A stretch of 64,000 bases of DNA, from positions 16,884 through 80,883 of the IMG/VR virus record IMGVR_UViG_3300037961_005793; one strand, given 5' to 3'. This document shows positions 1,629 to 55,479 of this stretch, in pieces. Positions within the stretch are counted from its first letter, which is position 1. The number at the start of each line of letters is the position of its first letter. The DNA comes from a virus. Below the pieces are notes generated by a model. It was given only the letters and a program-made list of their open reading frames with translations, ran no database searches and was not told the DNA's origin. A program made the position numbers and the translations under genes.

Positions 1629-2507
1629 TCAGGAAGGGGAGGTGCTGGTGTAGGTCGAAGACTCAACCAGACCGTCGGGTTGCAGAGCAACGTCCTGACG
1701 CTCGGGGGGTTCATCGGGGATGATCCAGCAGACTTCGCAGATTGCGAGAGCCTTGTCGTCACCAGACAGCTTGTTGGCTGCAGCGCGGGGATCATAGATA
1801 CCAGAGCCTTGAGCCAGACCGGAACCGGCAACGCCGCCCAGGTCGGTCGTGGTGAACAGCTTCCACTGAGTTTCAGAACCCAGAGCAGCCAGGCTGCTGG
1901 AGTCAATGATGTTGGTGGAAGCAGTGCTGCCGTTAGCGATAGCGCTGTTGGAGCCGGTGAGGGTGACACCGAACTGACCAGAAACGACAGTGCCGTCGTC
2001 TTTCAGACCTTCGCCCACAGCGGGAACGAGGGTCAGCTCAGGGGTGGCGTCAGTACCGGCAACACCGGAGCTAACGAGGTCACCGCCGCTGAGACGCAGG
2101 GATGCGCGATAGACGTAAGCAGTAGCCGGAACCTTGATGCCATCGGTGATGTCAGCCCGGACATCCTTATGGAAGTCGGGAGAAGGAACGATGACGTCAG
2201 CGTTCAGGAAAGGCTGCTCAGCGCTGTTCTGACCAGAGCCATAAGGCTTGGTGTAGTAGCTCATCTGGTTAGACGTGCCCAGAGCCTGGTAGCTCATGTC
2301 CACGTAACCAACGGCCTGTTGTGCGATCCAGCCAGGCTGGAAAACAACACCGACAGGGCCGCCGACGGGCTGGTTGGTCAGATTAGTATCGACGCCATTG
2401 GCGTTTTGATACTGAATCGTCTTTTCTTCGTGCCAGTAACGAAGAACGTTGGTGTAGTTGCCAGGATAGATCTTGGCAACGTGAAGCTGGTTAGAGTTGA
2501 TTGCCAT
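1629..2507 (-). CDS. Virion structural protein downstream of the major capsid gene
   Basis: 292 aa. It starts 14 nt downstream of the capsid gene stop and has a strong ribosome site (AGGAGGTAAC) before ATG 2507, the best in the window, suggesting very high expression. The protein is beta-rich with many Gly, Ser, Thr and Ala; its middle is a long stretch of polar beta strands, and the C-terminal 40 residues are acidic and proline-containing. Position, start signal and terminator fit a head decoration protein or second capsid protein, but no motif proves it. Confidence 0.8.
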   Translation of the reverse strand: MAINSNQLHVAKIYPGNYTNVLRYWHEEKTIQYQNANGVDTNLTNQPVGGPVGVVFQPGWIAQQAVGYVDMSYQALGTSNQMSYYTKPYGSGQNSAEQPFLNADVIVPSPDFHKDVRADITDGIKVPATAYVYRASLRLSGGDLVSSGVAGTDATPELTLVPAVGEGLKDDGTVVSGQFGVTLTGSNSAIANGSTASTNIIDSSSLAALGSETQWKLFTTTDLGGVAGSGLAQGSGIYDPRAAANKLSGDDKALAICEVCWIIPDEPPERQDVALQPDGLVESSTYTSTSPS

Positions 2508-2521
2508 TGTTAGTTACCTCC

Positions 2522-3637
2522 TCAAGCGTCGAAAGAGTAACCAACGGTCACGAAGTCTGCGTTAAGCAGTTCGAAACCTGCATACAGCGACCAGATCATC
2601 TGAATGAAACGACTGAAATCGTCGTTGTTGTTCAGAAGCACCTGAGCGTTGTTGCCACCGATGCCGACGCCGACAGATTGCGGGCCGAAGAAGATACCGA
2701 TCGCAGCGTTGTAATCTGCGGCGGCACCAGCGATGGTAGCGTTTTGAGTCTGGGAAGGCATGTTGGTGGATTCGAAGAATCGCACGCCCTCGAAGACAAA
2801 TCCCGTAGGCATAATAGGCTCACCAGCCACGAAGCTGGCTTGGCCGAAGCCCTGACCCATGTAGATAGCAGCGTTAGGCTGCATAGCTGACATGAGGGGA
2901 TTGATTTGACCGTTACCGGGGTAGCGGGCCACCTCACGGAAGTCACTGTTCTGACGCAAGTGCATCAAGAAAGTGGGGTCACAAACGCAACGATAGAAGC
3001 CGTCCTGGTAGGTCGGGGTGTTGCGCTTACGCAGGGACTTGACCACACGGAGGAGGTCGTCCTTAACGTCAAATTTGGCTTGCTCAGCGTTGGTGTAGGT
3101 CAGAGCGCCGGTAGCCAGGTCGCCAGGGAAGTAGTAACCACCCTGTGAGTCAGAAGCCTGACCCTTGGAAACAGCTTTCAGGAGTTCGTTAATAAACACC
3201 CGATCTCGCCACCTTCTATAGTCGTCCAGCAGGGTCAGGCTGCCGATTGACTGGTGGAAGGTGGTCAGGTTGCCTGTATCGAGCAGCAGACGCTGCGCGG
3301 TGATCAGGGTTTCCCGAGCAATCTTGAAAGTAGAAGGCTGGGTGGGATCGTTCGGGTCTGCAGGTCCGGTGTACTCACGAAGAGTCACCAAAACTTTGTC
3401 TTTGACAATGTTCCGGCTGTTGGCCGTACCGATCGTCTGCTCAGCAGTCCGCTCGCGGGACTCCTTAGAGCCGGGGTTTCCGAAGAACCGGTAACGGTCA
3501 AGCTGAACCGTCTGACCAGGCTGTTTAGAGAAGTCATGGACAACGACGGGCTCAGCCGCCATTTCCACGATGTAAGCCGGGTGAGGCCGATATAACTCGG
3601 CACCGAGAATCTTCGGAAAATCATTATCGATGAACAT
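2522..3637 (-). CDS. Major capsid protein (HK97-like fold)
   Basis: 371 aa, within the usual size range for podovirus capsid proteins without a delta domain. Features seen: an N-terminal arm leading into PGQTVQLDRYRFFG, a motif I know from phage capsid proteins; a long helix rich in Arg/Asp before FINELLKAV (spine-helix position); the pair CDPTFLMHLRQN and FREVARYPG; and a C-terminal beta domain ending in FVTVGYSFD. It lies downstream of portal and scaffold and upstream of a strongly translated structural gene, the order expected for a head module. It should form the icosahedral shell around a scaffold that is later removed. Confidence 0.88.
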   Translation of the reverse strand: MFIDNDFPKILGAELYRPHPAYIVEMAAEPVVVHDFSKQPGQTVQLDRYRFFGNPGSKESRERTAEQTIGTANSRNIVKDKVLVTLREYTGPADPNDPTQPSTFKIARETLITAQRLLLDTGNLTTFHQSIGSLTLLDDYRRWRDRVFINELLKAVSKGQASDSQGGYYFPGDLATGALTYTNAEQAKFDVKDDLLRVVKSLRKRNTPTYQDGFYRCVCDPTFLMHLRQNSDFREVARYPGNGQINPLMSAMQPNAAIYMGQGFGQASFVAGEPIMPTGFVFEGVRFFESTNMPSQTQNATIAGAAADYNAAIGIFFGPQSVGVGIGGNNAQVLLNNNDDFSRFIQMIWSLYAGFELLNADFVTVGYSFDA

Positions 3638-53655: not shown

Positions 53656-53841
53656 CTATTTCATATTACACGAAAGAAAGAAATCTTTTCGTGCCTGCTC
53701 TCCGCACGCCTTGCAAAACTCAGTCCACAAATCAGTGAAAAGGCCGTTAGTGCGTCCAGATTTTTCATAGAGGTATTCCATGAAAACCGCTTTCTTGTGC
53801 TCAGCTAAAGCGTCCCAACCTTTCAAATAATCAGTATTCAC
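53656..53841 (-). CDS. Small hypothetical protein coupled to the endolysin gene
   Basis: 61 aa, helical, start overlapping the endolysin stop by 4 nt. Sequence has YLYEKSGRTNGLFTDLWTEF and two Cys. Unknown function; likely late-expressed with lysis genes. Confidence 0.65.
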   Translation of the reverse strand: MNTDYLKGWDALAEHKKAVFMEYLYEKSGRTNGLFTDLWTEFCKACGEQARKDFFLSCNMK

Positions 53842-55085
53842 TTTTTAGCCTTGATAAACCAACCCGAACTATACCCTTTTTCGACCATCCAACGAGGTCC
53901 TAAATTCTTTTTTGAATAGAAAAGATACTTTCCATCACCGCTTATGTACCTGCCTGTAACTAAATCAAGATCACCAAACGGATCGTGAACTAAAATTTTC
54001 GACTTGTCGGCTGACAAGCCCACGGCGCAGATCCAATGACCTCCTCCAGTGGGGTTGGTTACTCCTCCGTGGTGCAAAATCCCAAGGGGAACTGGAATAC
54101 CTTTCTCTAAAAGTTCTTCGACCTCGCTCCAGGAACCGTCCTGTCTAAACTCTGTCTCAATTCCATACTGCTCAAGAGCACGCACTTGAACCCACGCTTC
54201 TGTAGTGTCACCGATTTCGAAAACCGTTTGGATATATTCATCGTCGTTACTAATGACGTCGGGTTTTAAACCAGACAAAAGCATCGCGCAAGCAGAACTA
54301 AAACAGGTGCGGTTGGCATCTCGGTAATTATCCCGTTGAGAGTAATAAGGAACTTCTAATTTAATTTCACTATTCTTTTTACGAGTAACAGTTCCCTCAG
54401 GTATATCGTTAATGATTTTCCAGTGAGGGCTGTAAAAATACCAACTTTTACCAGGCTGAGCAGTGAGCCTTACCTCGTAATGAGCAGCATTGGCAAACAT
54501 CGTTATTTGATCCCATTCCCACGCTCCGCCTTTAGGGACAAAAAGTTTTTCTTCGGGGAGAAGATCTGTTGATTGAGAAGGGCGCGTTTTAAGCCACGTA
54601 TCGTTCTTAGCCAATATGGATCGACCGAGCATCGGATGCCTTTCTGGCTTAGTCAAAAATAATTTTTTTTCTTCAGCCCTTCTACGCACAAGTCCTGGGA
54701 GATCTGTACCGTCGCCTCCTTTTGTCCAACGTCCAAACTCATCAGCAACTTCTTTTTTATCTACACCTCCGTTCAGTAAACGAAGAAGCGTAGAGTTTCT
54801 ATATGCGTTGCAGCCTACGTTGTACGTAAAAGAAACTAGAGCATCATATTCATTTTGATTTAGTTTGACTGTCGTGTAGTTACTTACTGCAGACTCATAC
54901 GAAGACACATCTTTTCTAAGCAGCATTTCTGCTTCTTCTTCGGTAATTTTTGAACCCTCCACTACGTCAGGTCCAGTGTGTCCGTAACCGATCGTCCAAA
55001 CACCAGAAGGACAAACGTAAGCACGAAGACGCATACCTTCGAACTTCTTGATTAGCTCAAGACCGGGAGTTGAAAGCCGTGCCAT
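53838..55085 (-). CDS. Two-domain endolysin: GH24 lysozyme plus C39-like peptidase
   Basis: 415 aa. Residues 1-140: GH24 lysozyme, with LIKKFEGMRLRAYVCPSG (catalytic Glu in FEG), VWTIGYGHT, LNQNEYDALVSFTYNVG and GLVRRRAEEKKLF. Residues 150-245: linker with possible SH3-like wall-binding part (KSWYFYSPHWKI). Residues 246-415: C39-like cysteine peptidase, EVPYYSQRD, NRTCFSSACAMLL (nucleophile Cys near 260), GHWICAVGL (His near 349), HDPFG (Asp near 367). It would cut both glycan and peptide in the wall. No signal peptide, so export needs the holin, encoded next upstream on this strand. Confidence 0.88.
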   Translation of the reverse strand: MARLSTPGLELIKKFEGMRLRAYVCPSGVWTIGYGHTGPDVVEGSKITEEEAEMLLRKDVSSYESAVSNYTTVKLNQNEYDALVSFTYNVGCNAYRNSTLLRLLNGGVDKKEVADEFGRWTKGGDGTDLPGLVRRRAEEKKLFLTKPERHPMLGRSILAKNDTWLKTRPSQSTDLLPEEKLFVPKGGAWEWDQITMFANAAHYEVRLTAQPGKSWYFYSPHWKIINDIPEGTVTRKKNSEIKLEVPYYSQRDNYRDANRTCFSSACAMLLSGLKPDVISNDDEYIQTVFEIGDTTEAWVQVRALEQYGIETEFRQDGSWSEVEELLEKGIPVPLGILHHGGVTNPTGGGHWICAVGLSADKSKILVHDPFGDLDLVTGRYISGDGKYLFYSKKNLGPRWMVEKGYSSGWFIKAKK

Positions 55086-55086
55086 T

Positions 55087-55479
55087 TCATCCAGGCATCC
55101 GTTTAATTCTGCCTAGAGTTAAATGAAATATCAACGCAAGTACGGAAGCTGAAACAGCTGTTGCCGCAGCTTCTGCCCACGGAGGACCAAAATGCGTAGG
55201 ATGCGTGAGTAGATCGCTGACGAATGTAAATACACCTGTAAGAAGAAGGTTTTTTAGCAGCGTGACCTTTTTAAAAAAGAGCACACAGAAACAATAGATA
55301 ATAGCTGCTTTATAACCAGTAGTATATGCAACAACTACATGCTTCCATGTAATTGCTGATAAATTACCTTCAACCATGAAGTACATGCACGGAAGCCATG
55401 CCTCCCAAAATTTCTCCAGAAAATTTTTGGGAGTTTTTGCAAGGCGATTATGCAGCTGTATAAGTGACACGGTATTCAC
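55087..55479 (-). CDS. Holin (predicted), multi-pass membrane protein
   Basis: 130 aa. Three to four hydrophobic stretches: around 50-70 (VVVAYTTGYKAAIIYCFCVLF), 74-90 (LLKNLLLTGVFTFVSDLL) and 103-122 (AATAVSASVLALIFHLTL); ends with basic residues. It stands 1 nt from the endolysin gene in the same operon, the usual place for a holin. It overlaps the gene before it by 32 nt. Confidence 0.75.
   Translation of the reverse strand: MNTVSLIQLHNRLAKTPKNFLEKFWEAWLPCMYFMVEGNLSAITWKHVVVAYTTGYKAAIIYCFCVLFFKKVTLLKNLLLTGVFTFVSDLLTHPTHFGPPWAEAAATAVSASVLALIFHLTLGRIKRMPG

Follow-up and report, generated by a model that had tools for sequence, protein, structure and literature searches.

The gene at positions 53838..55085 on the minus strand of the window (the whole 64,000-nucleotide stretch of viral DNA analysed here) probably encodes a bicatalytic cyanophage endolysin in which, judging from sequence comparison and predicted structures, a GH24 domain would cut the glycan, a C39_2 domain would cut a peptide amide bond, and release would depend on a holin. 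The open reading frame has exact boundaries, begins with ATG and occurs as a single copy in the 80,883-base virus record, which also carries genes for a DNA polymerase, a terminase, a primase and a thymidylate synthase. The gene, its parts and the gene preceding it are as follows:

53838..55085, minus: whole endolysin gene, 415 aa, arranged GH24 - SH3-like - C39_2 (open reading frame and translation, Pfam, PHROG)
54648..55085, minus: GH24 muramidase domain, residues 1-146 (Pfam, fold match, triad counts)
55038-55040, 55011-55013 and 54993-54995, minus: codons of the GH24 triad residues E16, C25 and T31
54402..54638, minus: SH3-like region between the two catalytic domains, residues about 150-228 (predominantly strands in the model, conserved in relatives)
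53841..54374, minus: C39_2 papain-like peptidase domain, residues 238-415 (Pfam, conservation, model, fold match)
54336-54338, 54303-54305, 54036-54038 and 53982-53984, minus: codons of the C39 tetrad residues Q250, C261, H350 and D368
55087..55479, minus: gene for a 130-aa membrane protein, candidate holin only, with a GTG start, directly upstream of the lysin gene

Both catalytic domains are matched by Pfam far beyond chance, with Phage_lysozyme (PF00959) covering residues 13-139 (E 2.4e-47, 160.8 bits against a cut-off of 22.3) and Peptidase_C39_2 (PF13529) covering residues 243-369 (E 6.4e-10, 40.2 bits against a cut-off of 24); a weaker match to Peptidase_C70 (0.014) overlaps the C39_2 region. 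The protein also matches the endolysin families phrog_7 and phrog_10051, so that an endolysin's peptidoglycan-degrading domain is represented by GH24, by Pfam and by fold, together with the endolysin PHROGs. An earlier note, made from the sequence alone, had described the gene as an endolysin joining GH24 to a C39-like peptidase, and the open reading frame, both Pfam families and the PHROG families bear this out. No Pfam family covers the stretch from about 150 to 228 in the scan of the lysin; the label "SH3-like" is given to it by its predicted shape, and it is probably a wall-binding part. By eye, no signal sequence is seen in the window lysin. When infection ends, the lysin would gain access to the wall through a lesion that a holin, perhaps encoded by the adjoining upstream gene, opens in the membrane. 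There the GH24 domain would hydrolyse glycan, the SH3-like part would probably bind the wall, and the papain-like C39_2 domain (Cys261-His350-Asp368) would cut an amide bond in the peptide stem or cross-link.

The GH24 triad is Glu16-Cys25-Thr31, with E16 lying within FEGMR. E16 and T31 are each present in 66/66 GH24 rows, and position 25, which we take to be the position of T4 lysozyme Asp20, is C in 40, D in 25 and P in 1. These residues and counts fit the GH24 catalytic motif written as E-8aa-D/C-5aa-T (PMC4640515; papers identified by PMC number are cited from excerpts of their text). An AlphaFold2 model of the whole protein (38 rows) has a mean pLDDT of 89.8 and a pTM of 0.47, the latter making the placement of the domains uncertain, and its top fold matches are GH24 muramidases. 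The N-terminal fold resembles those of the SpmX domain (6h9d), P22 lysozyme (2anv) and R21 (3hde), with TMt of 0.93, 0.89 and 0.75, although all three, unlike the window lysin, lack a C39 domain, and SpmX serves in cell polarity. An open reading frame of 1,025 aa at L054:1373-4447 also ends in a GH24 domain related to that of the window.

The 50 matches listed for the whole model comprised GH24-type structures and a few unrelated ones; as no C39-type structure was among them, the C39 part was searched with a model of its own (32 rows; pLDDT 91.0, pTM 0.88). This model matches the Bacillus anthracis C39-like peptidase 3erv (Z 15.6), a PCAT leader protease (15.3) and the methanogen-virus lysin PeiR (15.3); staphopain, AvrRpt2 and phytochelatin synthase, which have the same fold, are also among the matches listed. 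When compared with viral models, the domain is most like those of cyanophage endolysins and lysozymes, a Gordonia endolysin and the Lysin A of a mycobacteriophage ranking lower. In the whole model, C261 opens the central helix (261-273), H350 opens a strand (350-357) and D368 follows the next strand (363-367), which supports the placement of Cys, His and Asp at the expected topological positions of a papain-like fold; the structure prediction that the earlier note had proposed as a check on the C-terminal domain thus returned a confident papain-like model. Sequence matches in the PDB to designed TIM barrels (E down to 9.9e-14) cover about 45 residues and are not taken as homology, the top one summing four almost identical designed repeats, each worth 11-14 bits, and the fold search pointing to a papain-like domain. 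The stretch responsible (window 54087-54218, residues 290-333) is helix-strand, and the likeness is read as misleading and due to chance.

Conservation was assessed with three region profiles built from relatives, open reading frames carrying them being sought in 142 loci; residues were counted on distinct stretches, with identical stretches and C39 stretches shorter than 130 aa dropped. The resulting 88 C39 rows comprise 48 in open reading frames with GH24, 22 in frames lacking both GH24 and SH3 (some of them fused to other glycosidases) and 18 with SH3-C39 only. Q250 (in SQRDN), C261 (the first Cys of TCFSSAC), H350 (in GHWICAVGL) and D368 (in HDPFG) are each invariant in the first two groups (48/48 and 22/22, hence 70/70 distinct stretches). 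Fifteen of the SH3-C39-only rows form the sister clade discussed below, while L082 and L075 have an intact tetrad and in the distant S-CBWM1 protein L074 the position of Q250 falls in a gap. Three additional GH24-bearing contigs (L213-L215), read directly from their sequences, keep all four residues. The second Cys of TCFSSAC, C266, gives way to N, M, I or A in several rows where C261 is retained, which excludes it as the nucleophile and makes C261 the likely one; Gln250 is the probable oxyanion residue. That both domains retain likely catalytic residues, as first noticed from the motifs, therefore holds for E16, C261, H350 and D368; Gln250, the SH3-like stretch at about 150-228 and the Cys at GH24 position 25 come in addition.

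The combination of GH24 and C39 is not peculiar to the phage of the window. A tblastn search with residues 161-415 returned 96 phage records, every one named as a cyanophage (92 Synechococcus, 3 Cyanophage, 1 Microcoleus). Neighbourhoods were inspected in 23 phage records drawn from this search and another, and in 15 of them C39 is fused to or adjoins a wall glycosidase:

GH24-C39: S-CBS2, S-CREM1
C39-GH24: ACG-2014f
Glucosaminidase-C39: S-CBS1, S-CRES2, PSS2
C39-glucosaminidase: S-CBP3
C39-GH19-like: S-N03, S-B68
C39 and GH24 as neighbouring genes: S-PM2, S-CAM7, S-SRM01, DSL-LC02, DSL-LC03
C39 and GH19-like as neighbouring genes: S-CREM2

The GH19 label lies below the Pfam cut-off and is taken from PHROG families named endolysin or chitinase, and the C39 domain of S-CBP3, likewise below the Pfam cut-off, scores 216 bits with the C39 profile built here from relatives. 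DSL-LC07 and S-CBP1 resemble S-CBP3 in layout. No glycosidase adjoining C39 was found by annotation, the GH24 profile or Pfam (the last for two neighbours) in S-SZBM1, S-SRP02, S-CBP2, S-CBWM1 or the Microcoleus phage. Fused and split forms occur as pairs: the stand-alone gene of S-CREM2 shares 67% identity with the GH19-like portions of S-N03 and S-B68, ACG-2014f can be set against S-CAM7 or S-PM2, and the architecture of the window protein is divided over two open reading frames in L082 and L083. In S-CBP4 (L073, NC_025464.1), the C39 lysin region at about 2459-3441 lies in two open reading frames with no annotated gene, and the locus tags skip 0040. At the level of sequence, the repeated pairing with wall glycosidases supports a role in lysis for the C39 part; if this is true, many cyanophage lysins would have the C39 peptidase as their recurring component and the glycosidase as the exchangeable one.

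The kind of lysin is already known, and C39-type lysins have been published from other hosts. Gp054 of Synechococcus phage S-CBS2 (ADF42410.1), annotated as "lysozyme" in GU936714.1 and as "endolysin" in NC_015463.1, carries GH24 and then C39 in one protein with 42% identity over 99% of the window protein, but its middle region is unmatched by the SH3 profile and its position 266 is Met. PeiR (PDB 8z4h, and 8z4n with C90A), for which lytic activity is reported (PMC6189367), has a papain-like C39-type catalytic domain in common with the window protein, whereas their identity is only about 15%, its target is archaeal pseudomurein, and it bears pseudomurein-binding repeats and no lysozyme domain. 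The N5 module of mycobacteriophage LysA (Bxz2 gp11) is a C39-like cysteine peptidase module of an endolysin whose HHpred match, a B. anthracis C39-like peptidase (PMC3314691), carries the same description as 3erv, although the phages and hosts differ. Two gut endolysins join C39_2 to a lysozyme domain (PMC13284279), a table of hot-spring endolysins gives Peptidase_C39_2 with 17, 7 of these "with a hit" (PMC5017753), contigs of Planktothrix phages carry a C39 peptidase gene (PMC10343443), and PaV-LD has an endopeptidase of M23 type and a holin (PMC9096620). In the excerpts cited, a survey of lysin domains describes Peptidase_C39_2 as confined to phages that infect Gram-positive bacteria (PMC8223927), and the paper on the S-SRP02 genome assigns lysis to an amidase and does not name the C39 gene as a lysis gene (PMC8790148). 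Were the cyanophage pattern to hold, it would qualify both that survey and that assignment. No literature on a cyanophage glycosidase-C39 lysin group, or on the clade with an altered tetrad, was found among open-licence PMC texts; specialists might find both the pattern across cyanophages and the sister clade unexpected.

Instead of acting on peptidoglycan, the C39 domain might resemble bacteriocin leader peptidases in cleaving a protein or peptide, or might transfer an acyl group, and be joined to a lysozyme for some other reason. The same fold does serve in leader proteases, staphopain, AvrRpt2 and phytochelatin synthase, but the pairing of C39 with three types of glycosidase, in both orders and also as neighbours, and the presence of a lysin, PeiR, among the top fold matches make this improbable. 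Fusion to an ABC transporter is a feature of C39 bacteriocin peptidases, which are classified as papain-like (PMC10318531), and a PF03412-type comparison finds no such fusion here, only GH24, C39_2 and the weak C70 overlap; bacteriocin-type leader processing was set aside, as the protein has no transporter part. The contrast that the earlier note had drawn with the usual role of C39 as a bacteriocin leader peptidase is fair, yet C39-type lysins were already in print (LysA N5, PMC3314691; PeiR, PMC6189367).

The 130-aa membrane protein has two hydrophobic 19-residue windows and no Pfam or PHROG match. Its gene directly precedes the lysin gene in the window and its nearest relatives, and was found upstream in 21 of 72 GH24-SH3-C39 loci, some of which are the same contig twice; it was not found in 46 of the 72, each of these 46 having at least 700 nt of upstream sequence, and five were too short to tell. 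In L012 and L031, the homologue immediately preceding the lysin appears as two overlapping open reading frames. A general holin role for whichever gene precedes C39 is rejected, since in S-PM2 that gene matches a RusA-like resolvase family and has relatives at the same place in S-N03, S-B68 and S-CREM2.

The position of the membrane gene also bears on whether the protein is instead carried in the virion as a lysin that breaches the wall during entry. Some very large proteins do contain related domains, as in the long GH24-ending frame of L054 and in a 1,123-aa protein of cyanophage S-RIM14 that is named lysozyme and contains a C39-like fold. The window protein, in contrast, has 415 aa and no fused structural part, is grouped by PHROG with endolysins and, like its nearest relatives, is encoded directly after a small membrane gene, so that a virion lysin appears unlikely and an endolysin is preferred.

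The 15 distinct GH24-less SH3-C39 sequences group in a single clade (100/100), whose sister is the lineage of six rows to which the window belongs (97/84). They come from 16 contigs (L033-L045, L047, L048 and L055, the last adding no new C39 sequence), with L200 as a partial seventeenth. GH24 was found in 0/16 of these contigs (0/4 and 0/12), many of which are fragments. The tetrad is altered in all 15 sequences, as Q250H in eight, D368N in four, and C261 to F or Y together with Q250 to K or N in three (L041, L042 and L044); C261 is also lost in the partial L200. We do not claim that all 15 are dead enzymes, four being D368N and eight Q250H; papain itself has Asn at the position equivalent to D368, and activity may survive the change to Asn. 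Within the clade, the 21 usable pairs, which are not independent, have a median dN/dS of 0.063 (range 0.025-0.105), with medians of 0.053 for C39 (27 pairs) and 0.076 for SH3 (20 pairs), and these low values indicate that the genes are not decaying; the GH24-bearing set yields only two usable pairs (0.034 and 0.079).

Two long members of the clade, G001 and G002, show synteny with the window, the terminase matching at 89-90% and the DNA polymerase at 80%. The 130-aa membrane gene of the window has no match in either, though the flanking genes on both sides are kept. Both encode SLT_3/SLT proteins:

L152:14785-15714 (G002): 310 aa, with a hydrophobic start resembling a signal sequence
L157:3353-4207 (G001): 285 aa

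The Pfam scan of G002 covered 86 of 91 kept open reading frames, with 25 of 34 families listed. Among the 16 GH24-less records, an SLT_3 protein is present in three, which are also the longest (74.7, 80.5 and 52.9 kb); it is present in 1 of 44 GH24-bearing records and in none of the 15 of those of at least 50 kb, and the window's record has no SLT_3 match; this distribution suggests, but does not prove, a replacement of the enzyme in the GH24-less phages. Tentatively, and at a little under even chances, the clade may represent a maintained pseudo-endolysin, in which GH24 was deleted, the tetrad changed in three ways and the SH3-C39 remnant kept by purifying selection for a non-hydrolytic task, such as binding the wall or shielding it from other lysins, while the lytic-transglycosylase-like protein may have taken over the cutting of the wall. 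The clade offers a natural test of the role of the C39 domain. Its retention of that domain under purifying selection implies that the fold can be useful without the tetrad, but that the C39 domain of the window is itself a binding module only is very improbable, the tetrad being invariant in all 70 stretches from frames that have GH24 or lack both GH24 and SH3, in contrast to the variable C266 close by. On the minus strand at L048:905-2009, in a GH24-less phage, lie three open reading frames, one an 86-aa hydrophobic match to DUF6450 and two with hydrophobic stretches, which could be another membrane or lysis cassette.

Relatives also occur in cellular genomes, a C39 relative at E 1e-6 or better being present in 26 of 194 genomes from the phylum of the Xenococcus genome, several of them as SH3-like plus C39, with host genes and prophages counted together. 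Single cases were found of GH24-SH3-C39 (Xenococcus, L144/L165), of GH24-C39 (L193) and of adjacent C39 and GH24 genes (L171). The Xenococcus sp. PCC 7305 protein (L144:3497-4816) has the three regions in the order of the window but lies in a cyanobacterial genome, as a host gene or prophage. At L143:596-2931, a contig of a Synechococcaceae MAG, a 91-aa membrane open reading frame with one helix occurs with C39 and GH24, as in L135-L142, in a run that looks like a prophage lysis cassette.
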